Shown here: positions 1 to 28,654 of the stretch, in pieces
How positions within the stretch are numbered: position 1 is the stretch's first letter
Layout: every line of letters begins with the position of its first letter
IMG/VR virus record: IMGVR_UViG_3300047560_000427
Location: 1-38,423 of that record
Strand: one strand, 5' to 3'
Length of the DNA stretch: 38,423 nucleotides
Source: a virus
Program-made: the position numbers and the translations under genes
Notes under the pieces: generated by a model
Database searches by the model: none
Told to the model about the DNA's origin: nothing
Seen by the model: only the letters and a program-made list of their open reading frames with translations

Positions 1-116
1 TGACTTACTTGAGGTGTTTTGTTGTGTGAATATCCTTGCCATAGCCAACATTCACCTTCTTCTATTGTTCTTTTCATCAGTAACTCAAGTGTTTGGAATG
101 TTTTTTTTCTTGTCAT
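1..116 (-). CDS. Partial HNH-type endonuclease-like protein (N-terminus only)
   Basis: An ATG at 114-116 opens a frame that runs without a stop off the left edge, giving 38 codons. The visible part contains EGECWLWQGY, which resembles the CWLWxG segment at the start of many phage HNH homing-type endonucleases. A GAGAAG sequence lies upstream as a ribosome site. It follows the 72-aa gene in the same leftward operon. The catalytic part is outside the window, so the family call is tentative. Confidence 0.5.
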   Translation of the reverse strand, partial: MTRKKTFQTLELLMKRTIEEGECWLWQGYSHNKTPQVS

Positions 117-128
117 GTGTTCTTCTCG

Positions 129-347
129 TTACGCAAAATTCTTTGCTTTTAGTTTGGCTTCAATGGCTCGGACTACGCCATTGGTGTCAGAGTGCATCAC
201 TTTTCTGAGTGCATCTTTCACTTCTTCATTTGTAAGCCCAATCCATGTGCGTTGTTGTGCGGCCTCAAAATCTGCGCGTATACCAGCAAGATTTATTGTT
301 AGGCTCATGTTTTGTTTGATGATTTTTTCAACTTCTTCATCTGTCAT
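129..347 (-). CDS. Small hypothetical protein, 72 aa
   Basis: I do not recognise this protein. It is mostly helical and charged (starts MTDEEVEKIIKQN), with no signal peptide or membrane segment. Its start lies three bases past the stop of the cassette gene at 351-755, and its ribosome site (AAGGAG) is inside the last codons of that gene, so translation is probably coupled. Confidence 0.65.
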   Translation of the reverse strand: MTDEEVEKIIKQNMSLTINLAGIRADFEAAQQRTWIGLTNEEVKDALRKVMHSDTNGVVRAIEAKLKAKNFA

Positions 348-350
348 GTC

Positions 351-755
351 TTACTCCTTAATGCCGTGGGCGGCTTCGATTGCTCTGGCGTAATCAAGTG
401 ACGCAACATCGTAGATGTCCATCAACTTTGCAATCTGCTTATCCGTCAGCGGCTTGCGTTGTTGTGGTGTGGTGTAGACAGGTTCAGCGTCATCGTCAGG
501 CTCACTTAGCAAGTCAATAATGTTTCCCTTGGCGCTTCGCTTAATCCACGCCACAGGCTCTTGCTTCTCTGCCTCTGTGATGGCTTGGCGTAGGGATGTG
601 ATCGCGGCTTCAATCAGTTGAATTGAATGCGCATCATCAGGTGCTAGGTTTTCATATCCTTTGTACCGTTGTGCATTTTCAAACTGTTCGCTTTTTGCAT
701 AGTCCAAACCATGTTCTAACGCCTCAAGCCACTGTTTCATTGCTTCTATGCTCAT
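351..755 (-). CDS. Cassette-family protein with one EPVAW...YTTPQ module, 134 aa
   Basis: This is one of three clear paralogues lying in tandem. It begins MSIEAMKQWLEALE, has a bridging helix SLRQAITEAEKQ (about residues 54-65), one module from EPVAW (66-70) to YTTPQQRKPLT (94-104), and ends EAAHGIKE. Proteins with repeated EPVAW/LYTxPQ modules occur in many phages, but I know of no established function. The last codons ATT AAG GAG TAA supply the Shine-Dalgarno of the next gene. No catalytic motif is visible. Confidence 0.7.
   Translation of the reverse strand: MSIEAMKQWLEALEHGLDYAKSEQFENAQRYKGYENLAPDDAHSIQLIEAAITSLRQAITEAEKQEPVAWIKRSAKGNIIDLLSEPDDDAEPVYTTPQQRKPLTDKQIAKLMDIYDVASLDYARAIEAAHGIKE
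441..478. repeat. 38-bp direct repeat in the cassette array, copy 1
   Basis: This stretch, encoding the YTTPQQRKPLTD part of the 134-aa protein, is identical to 1080-1117. A third, diverged copy lies at about 1631-1668. Near-identity at the DNA level between paralogues indicates recent duplication or ongoing recombination. Confidence 0.75.
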
Positions 756-758
756 GTC

Positions 759-962
759 TTACTCCTTAATGTCGTGGGCGGCTTCCAAGCTGTCGAGTTC
801 TTCGCGTAACTCTGCAATATTCACAATGAACTTGTGAAGAGTCCTTCCACCACCCCAAGGTTTTGGACCTGCCAAGCGATGGCCACTGTAATCATCTCCA
901 ATATAAAAACTTGGCCCTTCTACGCCTGCAACGACTTCAAAAATTACTGTTCCTTTTTTCAT
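759..962 (-). CDS. Small cassette protein sharing only the family C-terminus, 67 aa
   Basis: The first 55 or so residues (MKKGTVIFEVVAGVEG...) are unrelated to the neighbouring MSIEAMKQ proteins, and only the tail SLEAAHDIKE matches them. It looks like a different body placed on the shared tail, as expected if recombination joins cassettes at their common ends. Its stop is three bases from the next start, with the AAGGAG site in its own codons. Function unknown. Confidence 0.65.
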   Translation of the reverse strand: MKKGTVIFEVVAGVEGPSFYIGDDYSGHRLAGPKPWGGGRTLHKFIVNIAELREELDSLEAAHDIKE

Positions 963-965
963 TTG

Positions 966-1511
966 TTACTCCTTAATGTGATGAGCAGCTTCGGCTTGAC
1001 GAAATATTCCGATGCGATAGTCACGGTCAACAGGCTTTCCACGGTAATAAATATGGTCTGTCATCAAATCTATTTCTGCATCCGTCAGCGGCTTGCGTTG
1101 TTGTGGTGTGGTGTAGAGAGTGCGTACTTCATACGGCCCGTGACCATCATGGTGGTCTGGGATTCCGTCATACCAATCTGAACAATGAGGATTGCGATAT
1201 TGATGTATCGCCACAGGCTCACCCTGCTCCTGCTTTGGTTGTGGTGTGGTGCAATTCGCGCATTTAAATGGCTCGTACCATTTTTTTGTCGCTGGGGTTT
1301 GAGCCTCATACATTTTTTGAGAAATGAAGCGCTTTAATCCAGCAATACCAGTAAATCTCCACGCCACAGGCTCACCCTGCTCTTGCTTCTCTGCCTCTGT
1401 GATGGCTTGGCGTATGGATGTGTGCGCTTGCCATGCCGTGTCTTCATCGAGTTTGTGGTTCAACCACAATTCCAAAGCCTCAAGCGCCTGTTTCATTGCT
1501 TCTATGCTCAT
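966..1511 (-). CDS. Cassette-family protein with two EPVAW-type modules, 181 aa
   Basis: A paralogue of the 351-755 and 1515-2417 genes. It starts MSIEAMKQALEALE, has SIRQAITEAEKQE near 32-44, a first module from EPVAW (47-51) to CTTPQPK (87-93), a second from EPVAI (98-102) to LYTTPQQRKPLT (132-143), and ends EAAHHIKE. A CANC pair and several His residues could bind metal, but this is weak. Protein length tracks module number: 134, 181 and 300 aa for one, two and three or more modules. Confidence 0.7.
   Translation of the reverse strand: MSIEAMKQALEALELWLNHKLDEDTAWQAHTSIRQAITEAEKQEQGEPVAWRFTGIAGLKRFISQKMYEAQTPATKKWYEPFKCANCTTPQPKQEQGEPVAIHQYRNPHCSDWYDGIPDHHDGHGPYEVRTLYTTPQQRKPLTDAEIDLMTDHIYYRGKPVDRDYRIGIFRQAEAAHHIKE
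1080..1117. repeat. 38-bp direct repeat in the cassette array, copy 2
   Basis: Identical to 441-478; here it encodes the YTTPQQRKPLTD segment of the 181-aa cassette protein. Further long shared blocks encode the RQAITEAEKQ bridge (about 561-592, 1383-1414 and 2256-2287). Confidence 0.75.
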
Positions 1512-1514
1512 GTC

Positions 1515-2417
1515 TTACTCCTTAATGCCGTGGGCGGCTTCGATTGCTTCTTTCAACGCTAAATCCCAACCGTCACCATCCCAACCGTCTTGACGGAAAA
1601 GGCTGTTGCGAATGACTTGGAATTGCTCAACCGTTAGCGGCTTTCCTTGTTGTGGTGTGGTGTAGAGAGGCTCATTTAAACAACCTTCTCCACCAATACC
1701 TTCTGCAAACCAGAAACCAAGTTCAGGGTCGTTTGGGTACGAAATACGCCACGCCACAGGCTCAACCTGCTCTTGCTTGGCTAATTGAGTTTCAAGATCA
1801 TATATGCGCTGATACAAGCGACTACGAATGTCTACTTCGTCTTGGTCTGTTTGCGATGTGGTATTGTTTCTTGCTTTGAGTGCAGCTTCAAACTCTTTAA
1901 ACTCTTTTGGATAGCCATGCTCCGCGACAATGAGGTCAACAATCGCACGTTCACGCGCTAAAGGCTCTTGCTCTGCTTTTGGTTGTGGCTCGGTATATAG
2001 AGCGCGTATTTCATAACCACATGAATCTCGTCGCCAATGTGCTTGTTTCTCATCGTCTAAATTTTCCCATTCAGACTCGTTGTCCATTCGGCCCTGCCAC
2101 GCCACAGGCTCTTGCTCAACCATTTTCGTGGCGTCAGGAATATGGTCTGCCTTTGGTTGTGGGTGGGTGTAGAGATTGCCTATAACCGCTTTAGGTGCAA
2201 GCGTCTTGTAATACACACCACCTTCACCGTCATCAACACATTCAGCCACAGGCTCTTGCTTCTCTGCCTCTTCGATGGCTTGGCGTAAAGATGTGCCTGC
2301 GGACAATAGTAAATCCTGTGCGTATTCGTGCTTTGTCTTTGCTGTTAATTGTTTTTTCAAACAAGCATCTGCATATTCCAAAGCCTCAAGCCACTGTTTC
2401 ATTGCTTCTATGCTCAT
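1515..2417 (-). CDS. Largest cassette-family protein, three to four modules, 300 aa
   Basis: Starts MSIEAMKQWLEALE and ends AAHGIKE like its paralogues. Modules run from EPVAE (55) to LYTHPQPK (82-89), from EPVAW (103) to LYTEPQPK (140-147), and from EPVAW (219) to LYTTPQQGKPLT (251-262). A degenerate EPLAR (151) and a predicted coiled stretch (190-215) lie between. Its ATG overlaps the TGA of the zinc-ribbon gene as ATGA. It is the promoter-proximal member of the array. The modules are recognisable phage repeats of unknown role. Confidence 0.7.
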   Translation of the reverse strand: MSIEAMKQWLEALEYADACLKKQLTAKTKHEYAQDLLLSAGTSLRQAIEEAEKQEPVAECVDDGEGGVYYKTLAPKAVIGNLYTHPQPKADHIPDATKMVEQEPVAWQGRMDNESEWENLDDEKQAHWRRDSCGYEIRALYTEPQPKAEQEPLARERAIVDLIVAEHGYPKEFKEFEAALKARNNTTSQTDQDEVDIRSRLYQRIYDLETQLAKQEQVEPVAWRISYPNDPELGFWFAEGIGGEGCLNEPLYTTPQQGKPLTVEQFQVIRNSLFRQDGWDGDGWDLALKEAIEAAHGIKE

Positions 2418-2626
2418 TTTTGGTACTCCACAATATGTCCACAGTCTTTACAAATCATTTTGTAACGGGTGTAGTAGTAAACGTCATAAGACATTTTTGG
2501 TTTCTTTTCTTCTTCAGCCATTTGAGTCATTGTTAAATGAATCTCTTGAGGCTTTGAAACCACTTGTTCATGCAAAACATTTGTTGAATCACATTTATCG
2601 CAATGAATGATGTTGATGTAACTCAT
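2414..2626 (-). CDS. Small zinc-ribbon-like protein, 70 aa
   Basis: Two CxxC pairs, CDKC near residue 9 and CKDC near residue 59, frame a middle containing a Met/Glu/Lys-rich stretch. This is the usual layout of a four-Cys zinc ribbon, so a nucleic-acid or protein-binding role is plausible but unproven. Both ends overlap neighbours as ATGA, with the 34-aa gene before it and the 300-aa cassette gene after it. Confidence 0.65.
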   Translation of the reverse strand: MSYINIIHCDKCDSTNVLHEQVVSKPQEIHLTMTQMAEEEKKPKMSYDVYYYTRYKMICKDCGHIVEYQK

Positions 2627-2727
2627 AAAGGAGCCTTTGGCAGTTGTGCGCGTTGCGCTGCTTTGTATGCTTGTTCTTGAGATTTAGTCCAGGGGACTAC
2701 TGGTTGTGTTGGGAAAGGCCATGTCAT
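2623..2727 (-). CDS. Micro-protein, 34 aa, Pro/Gln-rich
   Basis: The frame ATG (2727) to TGA (2623) encodes a peptide starting MTWPFPTQPVVPW, with an Ala/Gln helix at the end. It exactly fills the gap between two genes: its ATG overlaps the upstream TGA, and its TGA overlaps the downstream ATG. That double ATGA fit is the main evidence. Function unknown. Confidence 0.6.
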   Translation of the reverse strand: MTWPFPTQPVVPWTKSQEQAYKAAQRAQLPKAPL

Positions 2728-2957
2728 GCTTCATCTCTTGCTCGGATTGTTCTGGCGCATTGATCAACTGCCAAAGCAGAATTACCAACAACCTCAATCA
2801 CCAATTCTTCACACACCTTTGCACACGCCTCACGCTCTTTAGCAGTGACAACGTCTGCTACCAGTTTTGCAAACTTTCTCAACTGTTCTTTTCTAAAGTG
2901 CACGGTTGCGTGTAAATCAGCCTCTTTAGCCATCTCAATGATTTCATCTTGTGTCAT
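2724..2957 (-). CDS. Phage protein with MTQDEIIEM start and IRAR end, 77 aa
   Basis: Starts MTQDEIIEMAKEADL, carries FAKLVADVV-KEREACA in the middle, and ends IRARDEA. The same pattern occurs in the 4016-4255 gene, so the two are paralogues. The type is common in phages of Proteobacteria and has no known function. A helical, soluble protein is predicted. It overlaps both neighbours by four bases. Confidence 0.65.
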   Translation of the reverse strand: MTQDEIIEMAKEADLHATVHFRKEQLRKFAKLVADVVTAKEREACAKVCEELVIEVVGNSALAVDQCARTIRARDEA

Positions 2958-3280
2958 TTCATTGCCTTTCCTATTTCAGCCGCTGCTCTTACGATTGCTC
3001 GGCGGGTTGCTCTTTCAGGATCATCACCATAATGCGGCTCATCAATCAGAATCTCACCGCAAAGAACACGAGAACAAGCAGAGTCGCCATGAATCCAAGG
3101 CTCAACATCCATTCGCAACTTCACAGCCAGACGCAGCGCATCACCATCGTCTGTTAGTGGGTTCCACCAACCGCTATCAGGGTCATCGTCAATCATTCCC
3201 CATTCGCCAAGATATTCGTAATATTTGCGCTTATATCCAGCCGCTTTAGCAGCCAGCTCTAACAGTTCTTTATCAGTCAT
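2954..3280 (-). CDS. Conserved phage protein with WNPLTDDGDALRLAVKL motif, 108 aa
   Basis: The central WNPLTDDGDALRLAVKL and the ending ATRRAIVRAAAEIGKAM are hallmarks of a small family I recognise from betaproteobacterial phages. Its role is not established. The N-terminus MTDKELLELAAKAAG is helical. Overlap with the next gene is ATGA. No membrane segment or metal site is apparent. Confidence 0.7.
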   Translation of the reverse strand: MTDKELLELAAKAAGYKRKYYEYLGEWGMIDDDPDSGWWNPLTDDGDALRLAVKLRMDVEPWIHGDSACSRVLCGEILIDEPHYGDDPERATRRAIVRAAAEIGKAMK

Positions 3281-3289
3281 ATCAATCCT

Positions 3290-3571
3290 TTACATGTGCT
3301 TTTCAATCAATCTCTCTATCCCTCTTTCGATGTCTCCATCTCCTAACTCTTTGAGGTTTAGTGTCGCTATGTTATTTATCTTGAGTGTAACAGTCAAGCC
3401 TTCTTTTTTCGGTTGTTGTATTTTTGTTGAAGGTCTGCCAGCGCCCGGTCTTTTTCCACCACGTTTCGTCCTTGGGCCTACGAATTCATCCCAGTACCAA
3501 GAGGGCTTTTTGTAGTATTTCTCGTACTCGCTCTCTTTTTTTGGATCGTATCCAATGTCATTCCAGTCCAT
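3290..3571 (-). CDS. Putative DNA-binding protein with AT-hook-like KRPGAGRP, 93 aa
   Basis: The middle contains RGGKRPGAGRPS, a GRP-type AT-hook-like basic patch. The C-terminal half (VTLKINNIATLNLKELGDG...) resembles a ribbon-helix-helix strand followed by helices. Both point to DNA binding, possibly as an early regulator. I place the start at the ATG at 3571; a GTG at 3580 is an in-frame alternative. It overlaps the end of the resolvase gene by 14 bases. Confidence 0.55.
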   Translation of the reverse strand: MDWNDIGYDPKKESEYEKYYKKPSWYWDEFVGPRTKRGGKRPGAGRPSTKIQQPKKEGLTVTLKINNIATLNLKELGDGDIERGIERLIEKHM

Positions 3572-4019
3572 CGTTCTCACGCCGTAAGTACTCTGCCATC
3601 AGTAATGCTTCTGCTCTTCCGTTGTCTTTTTTTCTTTTTAGCGGAGCAATAGGCCATATTTCTCTTGCCAGGGTCAAACTCTTGTTTTTGTCAGAATCGA
3701 GTTTGAGGGCTTTTTTCCATTTCTGAGGGGTAACTATGTGCCAGGGGCAATTAAAGCGTTCTACGATGGCTATAGCGGCTCCAAACGCCATCCCAAACTT
3801 GAAACTGGAGCTAACTCCTTGTCCTGGCATAGCATGGACTGATTCAATGATGATCTCTATGTCTTGTCGGTCAACTGCTTGACACATTTCTGCCCAAACT
3901 GATCGGGAAAGAATGTGTTTTTCATTGTGGATCATGTCGCCACAAGAGATGTACTTCCCGTTGTGGTCAACAATGCCCCAAGCTCCAGTAAACCCAGGGT
4001 CGATGCCTAAGTACATCAT
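3558..4019 (-). CDS. RuvC-like Holliday-junction resolvase
   Basis: The N-terminus reads LGIDPGFTGAWGIVD, the first RNase-H-fold strand of RuvC-type nucleases with the catalytic Asp at residue 7. IIIESVHAMPGQG supplies the second acidic residue (Glu59), and KDNGRAEALLMAEY (131-144) the C-terminal acidic pair (Asp132, Glu137). VTPQKWKKAL (96-105) is also typical. At 153 aa it is close to RuvC length. It probably resolves branched replication and recombination intermediates before packaging. It shares an operon with the replication gene and pairs functionally with the ERF/SSB module on the other strand. Confidence 0.85.
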   Translation of the reverse strand: MMYLGIDPGFTGAWGIVDHNGKYISCGDMIHNEKHILSRSVWAEMCQAVDRQDIEIIIESVHAMPGQGVSSSFKFGMAFGAAIAIVERFNCPWHIVTPQKWKKALKLDSDKNKSLTLAREIWPIAPLKRKKDNGRAEALLMAEYLRRENDGLE

Positions 4020-4255
4020 GCTTTACCTCTTGCTCGGATTGAGTTTGCCGCAAATTCATATTCTTTGAATCCAGCGATGTTTAATACTGTTTGAGCACAC
4101 GCCTCACGCTCTTTATCAGTGGCAACGGCTGCTACCAGTTTGGCAAAGGCTTCAAGTTCTTCAGTAACGATTACCCAAAACCCATTTTGCTCAGGATCAA
4201 CTCGGTCTTTATCGCACGATGCTCTAAGCATCTCAATGATTTCATCTTGTGTCAT
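4016..4255 (-). CDS. Paralogue of the MTQDEIIEM...IRAR protein, 79 aa
   Basis: Starts MTQDEIIEMLRASCD and ends SIRARGKA, with FAKLVAAVATDKEREACA in between, matching the 2724-2957 protein. I place the start at the ATG at 4255 because it overlaps the upstream TGA as ATGA; an in-frame start 15 codons earlier would intrude into the neighbour. Function unknown. Confidence 0.65.
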   Translation of the reverse strand: MTQDEIIEMLRASCDKDRVDPEQNGFWVIVTEELEAFAKLVAAVATDKEREACAQTVLNIAGFKEYEFAANSIRARGKA

Positions 4256-4731
4256 GCCAACTCCCTCGTGATAACTCGCACCTTCTTTGTGATAATGCAT
4301 TGATTAACATAGTCGATTGATTGTTCAAGTTCTTTTACTGTCGTTTCCTCTAACTGTTGGTCATGAACTTGCATAGCCAGTTTCACAGCTTGAATCTCAG
4401 GACCAGTAAACAGATAACTCTTGCCATTCACCCCTCGTCTACCCATTTCGTAAACAGCGTCTTGGGCTTCTTTGATCTCTGGCAACCAATCACTTCCCTT
4501 TTCAGGAAATAGCTTGGCAATAGCTTCTGCTTGGTTGAATGCATGAATGAGAATGTCGGCATGTTCCATAGTGCCTCTGCCGAACAAAATCTCGTCTAGG
4601 GCTGCATGGTTTTTTGTAATCAGCGTAGTGCCAGCACCTGGGACTTTTGCCACTGTTAGCATGCCTGACTTAACGTATGTCATTACATCTAGACGGATGC
4701 CCTTAGGACGGTATTTGCTTCTTTTTTTCAT
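4252..4731 (-). CDS. Conserved phage protein with RSKYRPKG start, 159 aa
   Basis: Starts MKKRSKYRPKGIRLDVMTYV and is otherwise helical, with no clear catalytic motif. Proteins with this basic N-terminus occur in replication regions of betaproteobacterial phages, but their role is not known to me. The ATG at 4731 has an AGGA site about nine bases upstream, so I prefer it to the TTG one codon earlier. It overlaps the next upstream gene by 29 bases. Confidence 0.6.
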   Translation of the reverse strand: MKKRSKYRPKGIRLDVMTYVKSGMLTVAKVPGAGTTLITKNHAALDEILFGRGTMEHADILIHAFNQAEAIAKLFPEKGSDWLPEIKEAQDAVYEMGRRGVNGKSYLFTGPEIQAVKLAMQVHDQQLEETTVKELEQSIDYVNQCIITKKVRVITRELA

Positions 4732-9036: not shown

Positions 9037-9528
9037 ATGAAACATCTATTTACTCAAAAAGAACTTTGGGAAATCCTTGACTACAACCCAAACACTGGTG
9101 TATTCATGTGGTGTAAACAAAGACGAGGCGTCAAAACTGATGCACCACTTGGGACTGACAATGGCTTTGGTTATCTTCGGATTACTGTGCTTGGCAAGTC
9201 TTATTACGCGCATAGGCTGGCTTGGTTTTACATGCAAAACGAATGGCCTGACCAGATTGATCACATAGATGGCGACAAGTCTAACAATTCGTGGGAAAAC
9301 TTACGCAATGTGACTGTTCAACAAAATGCTCAGAACAAATTGAAAGCTCAAAAAAACAGCGATTCAAAAATTTTGGGTGTCAGTTGGCATAAAAAAGCAA
9401 AGAAGTGGCAAGCGCACATCTGTGTTTATAAAGAAAGAAAGTACCTTGGATTGTTCAAGGACATCAACGAAGCACAAGAAGCTTATTTGAAAGAAAAGGA
9501 AAGGATTGATTATGAGTTCAGTACATAA
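9037..9528 (+). CDS. HNH-AP2 homing-type endonuclease
   Basis: Residues 56-90 (YYAHRLAWFYM, then QIDHIDGDKSNNSWENLR) are a classic HNH nuclease core with His76 in the DH pair and downstream Asn residues. Residues 112-155 (ILGVSWHKKAKKWQAHI...YLGLF) form an AP2-type DNA-binding domain. Such stand-alone enzymes cut phage DNA at specific sites and spread by repair. It sits behind a 31-base gap with a weak ribosome site and overlaps the ERF gene by 17 bases, as for an inserted gene that has kept the operon intact. Confidence 0.85.
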   Translation: MKHLFTQKELWEILDYNPNTGVFMWCKQRRGVKTDAPLGTDNGFGYLRITVLGKSYYAHRLAWFYMQNEWPDQIDHIDGDKSNNSWENLRNVTVQQNAQNKLKAQKNSDSKILGVSWHKKAKKWQAHICVYKERKYLGLFKDINEAQEAYLKEKERIDYEFST

Positions 9529-10126
9529 AAAACTAATGCAAGCCCGTATCAAACTACAAGCCACCCCCCTTAAAAAGTCAGGCTTGAACAAATTTGCTGG
9601 GTTTCAGTATTTTGAGCTTGGCGACTTCTTGCCACAGATCCAACAAATCTTTTCAGAGATTGGTTTGTGTGGCGTGGTGAGCTTTGATACACAATTGGCT
9701 ACCTTGACCATCACCGACACAGAAGATGGCTCAAACATCGTTTTAACCAGCCCTATGGCTGAAGCAAACCTCAAAGGTGTTCATCCCATTCAAAACATGG
9801 GAGCTGTAGAAACTTATAGCAGACGATACCTTTGGGTAACCGCCCTTGAAATTGTTGAACATGATGCACTGGACGCAACTACAGGACGTAAAGGTGATGC
9901 GCCAATCATTACTCCCAAAGGCAATGTAGGTGACGATTTGCCAGAAGAGGAAAAAGAGTTTCTCAGTGAGATGGCAGCATCTTGCGAGGAATTGGTCAAC
10001 CAAGACAAAGCTTTAGAAGCCGCACAGATGGTGGATGAAGCAGCGTTAGAGGCTGACCAAAAAGTATGGCTCTGGGGACAGCTAACAGCTAAAACCAGGG
10101 CTGCAATTAAGAAAGCCAAAGCTTGA
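9512..10126 (+). CDS. ERF-family single-strand annealing protein
   Basis: Contains FAGFQYFELGDFLPQIQQIF and the diagnostic GAVETYSRRYLWVTALEI followed by an acidic stretch, which identify the ERF recombinase family (P22 Erf-like annealing proteins). It anneals complementary single strands in phage recombination and concatemer formation. The C-terminal third is acidic and helical. Start at ATG 9512 with AAGGA six bases before it, giving 204 aa. The next gene encodes an SSB-like protein, a common pairing. Confidence 0.85.
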   Translation: MSSVHKKLMQARIKLQATPLKKSGLNKFAGFQYFELGDFLPQIQQIFSEIGLCGVVSFDTQLATLTITDTEDGSNIVLTSPMAEANLKGVHPIQNMGAVETYSRRYLWVTALEIVEHDALDATTGRKGDAPIITPKGNVGDDLPEEEKEFLSEMAASCEELVNQDKALEAAQMVDEAALEADQKVWLWGQLTAKTRAAIKKAKA

Positions 10127-10136
10127 AAGGAATACG

Positions 10137-10409
10137 ATGGCTGAATTTAACAATGACAATCGTGGCGCTCTCTTCAAAAACAAGAAGAAAGAAACAGATA
10201 AACACCCTGACTACAACGGCTCAATTACCGTTAATGGCACAGAGTACTGGCTAAGTTCTTGGTTACAAACATCAAAGAATGGTGAAAAATACATGTCTTT
10301 GTCTGTCAAACCAAAAGAAGACTCCCCCCGTCAAAGTTCTGCACCTACCCGCAAAGAAGCCCCAAAAGGCAAATCTGTGCAGGATATGGATGATGATATC
10401 CCTTGGTAG
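10137..10409 (+). CDS. SSB-like protein with DDDIPW tail, 90 aa
   Basis: The first 60 residues (RGALFKNKK, then SITVNGTEYWLSSWLQ) look like a short beta-barrel. They are followed by a Pro/Ser/Lys linker and the acidic ending MDDDIPW, which mimics the SSB C-terminal tip (DDDIPF) that recruits host replication and repair proteins. It lies ten bases after the ERF gene with its own AAGGA. It probably binds single-stranded DNA or host SSB partners. It is shorter than cellular SSB, and the fold is inferred. Confidence 0.6.
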   Translation: MAEFNNDNRGALFKNKKKETDKHPDYNGSITVNGTEYWLSSWLQTSKNGEKYMSLSVKPKEDSPRQSSAPTRKEAPKGKSVQDMDDDIPW

Positions 10410-24480: not shown

Positions 24481-25020
24481 TTAAAAGCTACCGCCTGAAA
24501 TACCGCCTGTAGCAGTCACAACATTAAATGTTTTTGTTCCACCGATTATCTGATTATTTACTAAATCTACGTAATCAGTAGGTCCAACACTTTGAACCCA
24601 ACCGCCAGATTCTTTAAACCAAATAATCCGTGGAGTTGTAGTTTGAACATACATCTGGCTAGTAACACCATCACCAGATGTAGGGGCAGAACTTCCCGAC
24701 AAAATTGGTAAACCAGCACCGCTGGAATAAGCAAATTGACCAGGAGTTGACCAAGTTAATGTAGATGCTGTTTTGCTGTTAACTACAGCAATAGACACCC
24801 ACACTAATGTTGTTGGGTTTGTTGGAGGACTTGTTGACCAACCAGTAGGTGGAGTCCCCATATTTGTCGTGAAATCCCAAGAACCACCAGTTGGAGTTGC
24901 AGGAGCAGAAGGCGATGATTGGAAAATAAACCACTCAAAATATGTCCCACCAAATGTATTGGTGTTGCCATACAGACCGACAGATTCAGATGAATTGCCG
25001 TAAAAACTACTGGTCATCAT
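24481..25020 (-). CDS. Small tail-fibre protein, paralogue of the neighbour's N-terminus, 179 aa
   Basis: Residues 10-100 (LYGNTNTFGGTYFEW, ATPTGGSWDFTT, GTPPTGWSTSPP, LTWSTPGQ) parallel the N-terminal domain of the 527-aa fibre, and the last residues GGISGGSF match its GISGGTF. It lacks the collagen-like and long adhesin parts. I start it at ATG 25020, which overlaps the upstream stop as ATGA, with GGAGG upstream. It probably co-assembles at the same attachment point. Confidence 0.65.
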   Translation of the reverse strand: MMTSSFYGNSSESVGLYGNTNTFGGTYFEWFIFQSSPSAPATPTGGSWDFTTNMGTPPTGWSTSPPTNPTTLVWVSIAVVNSKTASTLTWSTPGQFAYSSGAGLPILSGSSAPTSGDGVTSQMYVQTTTPRIIWFKESGGWVQSVGPTDYVDLVNNQIIGGTKTFNVVTATGGISGGSF

Positions 25021-26603
25021 CAGAATGTCCCTCCAGAGATGCCAGACCAAGTAGCACTTGTTCCATCAGTGGTCAGTACTTTTCCTGCATTGCCTGTTTG
25101 AGTGGGAGTCAAAGAGTTAAATCCAAGATCACCAGATCCAAGCAAAGAGTTACTTGCGACAGTCTTAATGTTTGTGCCACTTACCAAAGCAGCTTGTTTG
25201 TTGTTAAACGTAGTCCAATCAGTGCTAGTTAAATAACCATTAACTGATGTGGTTGCAGCAGCCATGCTAATAGCAGGAGTAGTACCACCGCTAGAAACAA
25301 TAGGAGCAGTTCCAGTAACAGACGTAACACCGCTATTGGCGATAGATATAGATCCAGCGCCATTAGTAACTGATATGCCTGTACCAGCAGATATATTGTG
25401 TGCTTCCCACAATGAAGTGGTTGCGTTCCAAATAATTGTTTGTCCGTTGCTTGGTGTTTGAGCACTGACATTATGAAGTTCATCTAACTCATAACCGTTC
25501 TGAACTTTGACAAACAATTTTCCATGAACAGCATGAGCATACTCAACAACAGCAACATAAACCAAATGCGTAGGAGCATAAGTTTTCGTTGCAGTCAAAG
25601 TGCCAGCAGTTGTTCCACTTAAATACAGTTGAGCACCATCTGTATAAGCAGATGTATCAATATCTGTAATCAGTCCAATGATTGTGACATTGCCATTTGA
25701 ATTGTTTGCCAAATCAGCAGTTAACAATCCTAATGTTTGAGCAGAAGTGGCATCACTGGTTGCCAATGCTTTGCTAACAGTAGGAATCTGTCCAGTAGCA
25801 CCAGAAATATAAACAGCAGTGCCTTTTGTCAACGTAGCACCAGTAGTGTTACGGACTTGGCAAATGACGTTGTTTGTAGCAGCGGCAACCGCAACCGACA
25901 AATCAACTGCACCACTTGCGTTTGTAACAGTTACAGAGCCGTCAGCAGAAGCAACGCTACTAACTACGTTAGACCACTGAGTGTTGTAGTCTGTGCTGTC
26001 AATCTTGGTTAACGCTTGACCAGTTGTGCCACCTGTTGGAACACCAGCGCCTGTAGGGCCTGTAGGGCCTATTGGTCCTGTAGCTCCAGTATCCCCTCTT
26101 GGGATAGTGAAATTAAATACAGCAGCTGATGTTGTACCGGAGTTTGTTACAGAAGCCGATGTACCAGCAGCACCAGTTGTAGTTGTTCCCGCCGCAACAG
26201 TAGCAGCAGTACCTGGATTTCCCTGTGGACCTTGTGGACCAGTGGGTCCTGTAGGACCAGTTGGACCTGTAGGACCTTGTTTAAAGATTTGACCGGGAAC
26301 TGACCAGCTTAACGCCGATCCATTGCGCGAATTAACCAACGCAATGGACATATAAACAGGATTTGTAGGAGATGCAGGAGGTGAATTACTCCAACCACTA
26401 GGAGGTGTACCAGTGTTACTAGTAAAGCTCCAAGAACCACCAGTAGGCGTAGCAGGAACAGTCGTAGACTCAATGAAAATGAGATATTCAAAATATGTAC
26501 CGCCAAAACTAGAAATATTGCCGTACAGACCAGCAGATTCTGATCCAGAAGACGCAACAACATTCCCGTTTGGGCTGGATCCGTAAAGTCCACCTGTTGC
26601 CAT
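25020..26603 (-). CDS. Collagen-like tail fibre, 527 aa
   Basis: The N-terminal domain (1-107) with LYGNISSFGGTYFEY and GTPPSGWSNSPP is shared with the next gene. Two collagen-like blocks follow, at about 109-131 and 168-188 (GPTGPTGPQG and GATGPIGPTGPTG), linked by an Ala/Thr-rich beta segment. A Val/Thr/Ala-rich adhesin region runs to the end GISGGTF. Collagen-like runs form triple-helical stalks in phage fibres. It binds the host or carries the S74 fibre. Confidence 0.7.
   Translation of the reverse strand: MATGGLYGSSPNGNVVASSGSESAGLYGNISSFGGTYFEYLIFIESTTVPATPTGGSWSFTSNTGTPPSGWSNSPPASPTNPVYMSIALVNSRNGSALSWSVPGQIFKQGPTGPTGPTGPTGPQGPQGNPGTAATVAAGTTTTGAAGTSASVTNSGTTSAAVFNFTIPRGDTGATGPIGPTGPTGAGVPTGGTTGQALTKIDSTDYNTQWSNVVSSVASADGSVTVTNASGAVDLSVAVAAATNNVICQVRNTTGATLTKGTAVYISGATGQIPTVSKALATSDATSAQTLGLLTADLANNSNGNVTIIGLITDIDTSAYTDGAQLYLSGTTAGTLTATKTYAPTHLVYVAVVEYAHAVHGKLFVKVQNGYELDELHNVSAQTPSNGQTIIWNATTSLWEAHNISAGTGISVTNGAGSISIANSGVTSVTGTAPIVSSGGTTPAISMAAATTSVNGYLTSTDWTTFNNKQAALVSGTNIKTVASNSLLGSGDLGFNSLTPTQTGNAGKVLTTDGTSATWSGISGGTF
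26226..26280. repeat. Tandem 9-bp repeats encoding a collagen-like run
   Basis: Units close to GGTCCTGTA repeat about six times and encode Gly-Pro-Thr triplets of the 527-aa fibre. A second block lies at about 26040-26100. Such repeats change length by slippage while staying in frame. Confidence 0.65.
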
Positions 26604-27607: not shown

Positions 27608-28117
27608 TTACTTGGACGGTATGAGTGGATTATATGGTAGAGGGATTTTTCCTGAAGGATGACAAACGTATTCTGAATAGTACTCGTTAACAATGGCATA
27701 GAACAAAATCTTGTCCTTTTTATCCATCTTAATCAACTCCCACGGACGGTTGTTAAAGTACTTAGAACAGATCGAATGTGCAATAGCTTTTGGAAGACTC
27801 ATTGCTTCAAAAGTACCAGCAAAAATCGGGTTATCTGTTGTACCGATCATCTGATAAAACTCCCTGCGATCTTTGCAGTACTGTTTTATTTGATCAGTAT
27901 TGTGTTGGGTGTATTGAACATATCTTTCACCATTCAAAGCACCAATTTTGTAATCAATGTTGTTGGTCTTGAAAGTCTGTGACCATGTACCCGATTTGAC
28001 TTCGTTGTACAACTTGTCGTTTTGTCTAACAACACCTTCAACTCCTGCCTCAAGGTTTCCCTTTAAGTAGTAGTCTTCATTGACTTTTGCTTCTTCATTG
28101 TTCAGATTCAATTCCAT
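27608..28117 (-). CDS. Hypothetical protein between capsid/HNH and adaptor genes, 169 aa
   Basis: Starts MELNLNNEEAKVNEDYYLKG; mixed helices and strands with several Tyr/Asn/Lys residues and no catalytic motif that I recognise. Its position suggests a head-completion or assembly protein. Its first ten bases overlap the end of the HNH gene, so the HNH insertion sits precisely at its border. Confidence 0.5.
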   Translation of the reverse strand: MELNLNNEEAKVNEDYYLKGNLEAGVEGVVRQNDKLYNEVKSGTWSQTFKTNNIDYKIGALNGERYVQYTQHNTDQIKQYCKDRREFYQMIGTTDNPIFAGTFEAMSLPKAIAHSICSKYFNNRPWELIKMDKKDKILFYAIVNEYYSEYVCHPSGKIPLPYNPLIPSK

Positions 28118-28611
28118 ACTTTCCCTTTGCGCTGGTTTTCCAAAGCTGTCAGAATTTGAAGATTAAATTGGTTATGCAACCCACAGACATTTTCTCCTGC
28201 CAATGGCACGATATGGTCAACATGGTATTTCACACCAGGATTCATTTCCTCTAATTCTTTGGCTTTTTTGTAAAAAGCTTTTACATTTTCTTGACCCCAT
28301 TTTGTAGTTGCTTGCAGTTTGTAAGCTCTACGTCTGGCGTCTTTTGCAATGTAAGCATGCTTATTTTTTTGATAGTGTTCACGACCATATTGTTTTCGCT
28401 TTTCCACCATCTTTTCAGATTTTAGATAAGCAACAATTTTCTCGGGATTTCTATCTGACCAGCTTTTGGTCCTATTTTGCTGACAAACAGAACAGTTTCC
28501 TGTTGCTGTCCATCTTTTAGCAATATGACCTTGCTTGCAGAACAAACCCGTAAAGTAAGCTTTTACGCCTTCTTGACGAGCTTGTTCTCTTGTCTTTGGT
28601 AAATCGTACAT
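28108..28611 (-). CDS. HNH endonuclease with Cys-pair finger, 167 aa
   Basis: An N-terminal CKQGHIAKRWTATGNCSVC is a zinc-finger-like element. After a basic helical linker comes the HNH core (YHVDHIVPLAGENVCGLHNQ, then NLQILTALENQRKG) with the DH pair, the spaced His and the Asn. The start at ATG 28611 is preceded by a perfect GGAGG. It interrupts the late operon right after the capsid gene and has its own strong promoter, both signs of a selfish insertion. Confidence 0.85.
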   Translation of the reverse strand: MYDLPKTREQARQEGVKAYFTGLFCKQGHIAKRWTATGNCSVCQQNRTKSWSDRNPEKIVAYLKSEKMVEKRKQYGREHYQKNKHAYIAKDARRRAYKLQATTKWGQENVKAFYKKAKELEEMNPGVKYHVDHIVPLAGENVCGLHNQFNLQILTALENQRKGKVWN

Positions 28612-28620
28612 TTGACCTCC

Positions 28621-28654
28621 GTTGCAATAAGGCCATAATAGACCATATTGCAAC
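28621..28654. promoter_or_regulatory. 9-bp inverted repeat over the HNH promoter
   Basis: GTTGCAATA (28621-28629) and TATTGCAAC (28646-28654) are exact reverse complements with a 16-base centre that contains the -10 box. It may be an operator, or form a hairpin just ahead of the ribosome site. The lack of a U-tract argues against a terminator. Confidence 0.6.

Follow-up and report, generated by a model that had tools for sequence, protein, structure and literature searches.

The 38,423-base window analysed here, a single IMG/VR virus record with SU10-type capsid and portal genes from a freshwater-type phage, carries an array of small genes made of interchangeable parts, between which lie short, nearly fixed DNA connectors. 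We consider in-frame shuffling by homologous recombination at these coding connectors to be the best explanation of the array and probably the correct one. The array proteins fall within a large and unnamed group of modular phage proteins, and the same three connectors, EPVAW, YTTPxQR..LTDEE and the EAAHGIKE/EAKLKEK tail, join modules at hundreds of IMG/VR loci. As an earlier note on this DNA had described, ORFs of 300, 181, 67 and 134 aa stand in tandem at 351-2417, all on the minus strand, and the paralogues differ in their number of EPVA..TP modules. The 300-aa gene (1515-2417) encodes an N block, three clear EPVA..LYT modules, one EPLA coil segment without LYT, a KPLTV C module and an EAAHGIKE tail; the 181-aa gene (966-1511) encodes an N block, two EPVA modules, an RKPLTD C module and an EAAHHIKE tail; and the 134-aa gene (351-755) encodes an N helical hairpin, a single EPVAW..VYT sheet, C helices and an EAAHGIKE tail. 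The description of the 67-aa gene (759-962) as a foreign body with the tail of the paralogues, here EAAHDIKE, is supported by the match of this phrog_24647-like small phage protein body to a 73-aa protein of Stenotrophomonas phage Bhz59 (53% over 60 aa), which ends in ..YEARHG where the window copy goes on as ..LEAAHDIKE. The fifth gene of the array, of 72 aa (129-347, minus strand), has a QRTWIGLTNEE C module of the LTDEE type, and its IEAKL tail is decayed to IEAKLKAKNFA; a remnant of tail DNA (CGAGAAGAACACATGAC) lies outside this ORF, 5' of the next ATG (window 100-347).

At the DNA level, the connectors are written GAGCCTGTGGCGTGG for EPVAW, CTCTACACCACACCACAACAACGCAAGCCGCTGACGGATGAG for LYTTPQQRKPLTDE or its RTWVGLTDEE variant, and GAAGCCGCCCACGGCATTAAGGAG for EAAHGIKE or its EAKLKEK variant. 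On the minus strand of the window, the EPVA connector is found at 549-560 in the 134-aa gene (GAGCCTGTGGCG), at 1362-1373 and 1209-1220 in the first and second modules of the 181-aa gene, and at 2244-2255, 2100-2111 and 1752-1763 in the first, second and last modules of the 300-aa gene, which also contains the YTTPQQ connector at 1647-1669. The YTTPQQRKPLTD connector of 38 bp occurs on this strand in two exact copies, at 441-478 and 1080-1117, and the identity of these blocks, already pointed out in the earlier note, was borne out. The longest exact blocks between paralogues measure 38, 36, 35, 34, 27 and 24 bp, whereas 500 codon-shuffled pairs gave no block longer than 14 bp. However, the claim that the 38-bp identity is a sign of recent exchange in this genome was not upheld: 15 further viral contigs contain this 38-mer without a mismatch, flanked on either side by different modules, and the identity is therefore in itself no proof of recent exchange within the window.

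The connectors are conserved as codons, more strongly than codon usage predicts and more strongly than the primosomal/resolvase genes of these contigs. For EPVAW, 47/80 cases use GAGCCTGTGGCGTGG, where 0.5% would be expected from the codon usage of the same ORFs, and YTTP starts with TAC ACC in 78/78 contigs. Codon identity at shared residues was 0.69 for the connectors versus 0.467 for the primosomal/resolvase genes, and the connectors scored higher in 207 of 241 non-independent pairs of contigs whose primosomal/resolvase proteins have no more than 70% identity (mean 42%). Pairs at this level were used because near-identical contigs had inflated an earlier control with all primosomal-gene contigs (0.578 versus 0.384 expected), which was discarded. 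Moreover, all exact connector words stand in the canonical frame (73/73, 49/49, 61/61 and 109/109), and across 3.88 Mb each copy is inside an ORF of at least 40 codons, except for two at contig ends. Part of this conservation could be at the protein level.

Judged by its placement, the constant tail is the putative Shine-Dalgarno site for the gene that follows. The array genes end in ATT AAG GAG TAA, with about 6 nt between AAGGAG and the next ATG. On the minus strand of the window, the 300-aa gene has AAGGAG in its tail at 1518-1523, and the ATG of the 181-aa gene (1509-1511) follows 6 nt later; the 181-aa, 67-aa and 134-aa genes have it in their tails at 969-974, 762-767 and 354-359, with the following ATG at 960-962, 753-755 and 345-347, respectively. 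Viral contigs were searched for the EAAHGIKE and IEAKLKEK variants using patterns degenerate at every codon: K-E is written AAGGAG in 109/120 terminal EAAHGIKE tails as compared to 3/78 other KE in the same ORFs, and in 118/142 terminal IEAKLKEK tails as compared to 4/79 other KE. An ORF-opening ATG was detected 0-19 nt downstream of 115/120 EAAHGIKE and 127/142 IEAKLKEK tails, mostly at 5-8 nt. The bodies that bear the tails are highly varied, 196 of the 262 tail proteins being without an EPVAW-like match. The sharing of a constant tail would be explained by AAGGAG serving as Shine-Dalgarno sequence of the following gene, and a ribosome-binding role of the tail would likewise account for the 67-aa gene, in which a Bhz59-like body is joined to DIKE, the Shine-Dalgarno codons. 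Any cassette ending in the tail would keep the operon translated, for example the unrelated body at 759-962. A conserved C-terminal peptide can thus serve the translation of the gene behind it instead of reflecting a function of the protein, and such a tail can mislead annotation as well as the prediction of function from motifs.

The exchange of modules between phages was analyzed by cutting 475 array genes into 1,062 modules with the connectors trimmed and asking, for each shared module, whether the adjoining one is also shared, with fixed-size blocks of ordinary ORFs from the same contigs as control. For modules sharing at least 90% DNA identity, the neighbouring module was homologous in 10/84 comparisons versus 643/901 for the ordinary-ORF blocks, and in the 78-90% band in 4/76 versus 867/2,595 comparisons. 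A non-homologous neighbour was found at least once for 76 of 81 module clusters with a comparable neighbour, and 760 of 884 module clusters occurred in a single contig only. Abrupt ends of high-identity matches lay at most 12 nt from a connector in 134/240 cases as compared to 24% for random positions (maximum 33% in 1,000 random sets), counted per gene in place of a lenient either-gene rule; about 44% of the abrupt ends are away from annotated connectors. In these alignments the internal connectors as well as the ends are the predicted points of exchange.

Individual loci illustrate this pattern. The second module of the 181-aa gene (EPVAIHQYRNPHCSDWYDGIPD..LYTTPQ) is present in contig L161 with 83% DNA identity over 144 bp and connectors at both bounds, and is followed there by a different module. 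In L117 and L213, the neighbouring DNA is about 96% identical over 3.3 kb, whereas the arrays differ: the C module QIDEIADTVANMPLVGIVxDFRTRFARAIEAAHGIKE belongs to gene 2 in one contig and to gene 1 in its counterpart, and the module PATLEEIRKAMIFGIPLYTTPQ to gene 1 in one and to gene 2 in its counterpart, with the joins at GAGCAGGGTGAGCC and CTCTACACCACACCACAA. The same modules are thus reassorted between neighbouring genes in a reciprocal exchange. Relatives at the same locus were compared, as the earlier note had proposed, and showed bodies and module numbers that vary, ends that stay constant and modules that are swapped. Those at 64-88% resolvase identity carry none to three array genes downstream of the resolvase gene versus five in the window, and their modules differ, several of these loci having too little sequence to judge; relatives with a similar resolvase may be without an array in their contig sequence. 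The earlier interpretation therefore stands as regards swapping, variable bodies and constant ends, but it had missed the internal connectors and the ribosome-binding site in the tail. The contigs L145 and L208, 99-100% identical, are distinguished by a 150-bp deletion (L145 6217-6366 versus L208 3575) which joins the LTDEE connector in frame to the next gene with almost no homology, and therefore illegitimate joining also contributes.

Some further observations concern genes other than those of the array. A paralogous pair of small genes is located at 2724-2957 and 4016-4300 of the window (MTQDEIIEMA..EREACA..IRARxxA), and L067 and L306 carry members of this MTQDEIIEMA-type family as fusions with the LTDEE connector, which means that the family also enters the shuffling. 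In the nearly identical contigs L413 and L420 (about 1800-3200), one gene of the replication region is mostly different with only its last part in common, which suggests a replacement inside that gene. In the window, a tail-type protein with a collagen-like GPTGPTGPTGPQGPQG stretch is encoded at 25020-26603, and the start of the neighbouring gene at 24481-25050 appears to be paralogous to it.

AlphaFold2 modelled the 134-aa protein with a mean pLDDT of 80, falling to 48 at the last residues: residues 3-64 form a helical hairpin, residues 69-93 a sheet of three strands, and two helices make up the C-terminal part. EPVAW is placed on strand 69-73 (the first strand, VAWIK), VYT on strand 90-93 (the last strand) and LTDEE before the C helices; the connectors are hence at the ends of structural units, which fits a role at the protein level as well as at the DNA level. 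The model of the 181-aa protein was poor in the middle. The four array proteins had no match above the curated cut-offs in Pfam and NCBIfam, and weak matches to unknowns only in PHROGs. PADLOC gave no function and the PDB fold search no significant match; weak GreA/Gfh1-like matches (E about 1) were set aside. In BFVD, the matches at E ≤ 0.001 were uncharacterised proteins of uncultured phages only. That these genes lie in the early region, are hypervariable and fall into no recognised enzyme family suggests small proteins acting on host factors. As for the host, the AIEAAHGIKE tail was found by genome scan in one betaproteobacterial MAG contig, and the assignment is therefore weak.

Selection on protein domains could produce such a pattern if illegitimate joins arise anywhere and those at domain edges are kept, the connector peptides being structural anchors (first and last strand of a small sheet, helix caps) whose codons are alike by shared ancestry. 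The placement of EPVAW and VYT on strands of one small sheet and of LTDEE before helices is in line with this view, as are the EPVAW/PLYT-like proteins in an E. coli phage and the illegitimate in-frame fusion in L145/L208. We nevertheless regard it as unlikely as the sole explanation, given that codon identity in the connectors exceeds that at conserved residues of other genes in the same contig pairs, that TAC ACC at YTTP is invariant and that the AAGGAG codons of the tail are explained by translation and not by the protein. A dedicated site-specific system acting at the connectors, such as inversion, integron-like cassette capture or a diversity-generating retroelement, would be suggested by the fixed DNA words at the cassette ends, but the connectors are direct repeats (save one 81% pair of 21 nt found in the search for inverted repeats) and are coding in one frame everywhere. 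Shufflons and other invertible cassettes need inverted repeats and a site-specific recombinase, and diversity-generating retroelements a reverse transcriptase, whereas integrase, serine recombinase and reverse transcriptase genes (PF00589, PF00239 and PF00078) are absent from the 38-kb record, which may be incomplete; such a system is very improbable.

Of even lower probability is the possibility that assemblers joined unrelated pieces at the repeated connectors of 20-40 bp. Despite the fact that the relatives are all metagenome contigs and that the connectors are short repeats, whole multi-module genes recur at 98-100% identity in contigs of separate IMG data sets (L440/L442/L444, L101/L205, L105/L178, L110/L198, L148/L191, L224/L300 and L195/L203, pairs representing the same contig twice being left out of the count), the frames stay open, and shared modules are usually 1-20% different, whereas chimeras from the same sample would be identical. 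Least probable of all is an absence of shuffling, with common ancestry and fast divergence of the segments between conserved motifs. The many module clusters confined to one contig would be in accordance with it; by contrast, modules at 90-99% DNA identity adjoin unrelated modules, and the modules common to L117 and L213 stand in different genes of the two.

The explanation we retain is thus shuffling through homologous recombination at the connectors, and the phage encodes recombination genes. The ERF that the earlier note had reported was located at 9506-10126 on the plus strand as an ERF-family single-strand annealing protein, a candidate recombinase, together with a single-strand DNA binding protein (SSB) at 10137-10409 on the plus strand and a RuvC-like Holliday junction resolvase at 3558-4019 on the minus strand, 1.1 kb upstream of the array. 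Based on their presence in the same genome, the ERF/SSB/Holliday junction resolvase set probably carries out the exchange. Lambda Red efficiently recombines DNA diverged by 22% (PMC2327257), which supports the notion that phage annealing systems act on imperfect connectors. Two HNH-type genes were also noted: an HNH endonuclease with AP2-like domain, probably a homing endonuclease, at 9037-9528 directly before the ERF gene, and an HNH-like ORF without Pfam match at the threshold used at 28108-28653, directly downstream of the major capsid gene.

Following this, we propose that the array represents one instance of a gene type that is widespread in phages and built from interchangeable modules, which meet at short coding connectors of one reading frame and nearly fixed DNA. 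Recombination or strand annealing between neighbouring genes or co-infecting phages may swap the stretch between two connectors, and a new open protein would result, given the similar DNA and constant frame of the connectors; the homology of the connectors would accordingly be what drives the exchange. The products may be small early host-interaction proteins for takeover or counter-defence, diversified by an arms race. In its full form the proposal is tentative, and we give it somewhat less than an even chance: connectors would be kept as fixed-frame homology patches from which new in-frame proteins are continually built during infection out of a common environmental pool of modules, with the ribosome-binding site in the last connector so that both the product and the downstream gene are expressed. 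If true, this combinatorial building of proteins would be a bacteriophage analogue of exon shuffling.

Several known systems share features with the array. T4-type PeSLs, as outlined where PMC4503421 cites Arbiol 2010 and Comeau 2014, are mobile cassettes of promoter and stem-loop. On that outline, the array has in common with them a region of small early genes in which an expression signal recurs where genes end and is at the same time a point of exchange; it differs in that the signal is a putative ribosome-binding site in a protein tail and further connectors lie inside ORFs. A conserved element of promoter plus stem-loop, which defines PeSLs in that outline, was not seen: in a scan limited to the sigma-70 consensus, promoter-like (4 versus 3.0 expected) and terminator-like sites (4 versus 3.2) showed no excess over chance, the latter all being on the other strand and the array strand having two weak promoter-like matches only. 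Domain mosaicism, in which unrelated phage proteins share near-identical fragments and recent swaps occur between close relatives, is described in the sections of Smug et al. (2023, PMC10684548) considered here for protein fragments in receptor-binding proteins, endolysins and polymerases; compared with that description, the array has repeated DNA connectors, several per gene, in tandem small early genes. The PVAW/PLYT protein of enterobacterial phage Av-05 (AII27666.1; 39.7% identity over 54% of a composite query) contains a PVAW..PLYT-like segment twice, as in the array, but has neither the EAAHGIKE nor the LTDEE connector. In the literature searched, we found no earlier description or naming of the connector peptides, nor the combination of fixed-frame coding connectors, several per gene, with a ribosome-binding site in the last.

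It has been debated for decades whether phage modules are joined by boundary homology or by illegitimate joining and later selection. The boundary sequences found here are many per locus, lie inside genes and carry a codon-level signature, which makes the question directly testable. In the boundary-sequence (linker) mosaicism of lambdoid phages, short conserved DNA at module junctions allows general recombination to swap the module between; according to PMC3029335, which summarises this mosaicism, boundary sequences cannot be found at most junctions. The array modules likewise carry short conserved DNA at both ends; unlike lambdoid linkers, their connectors are also inside genes, code in one fixed frame, recur many times at each locus and subdivide single proteins. 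We file the array as a variant of boundary-sequence mosaicism.
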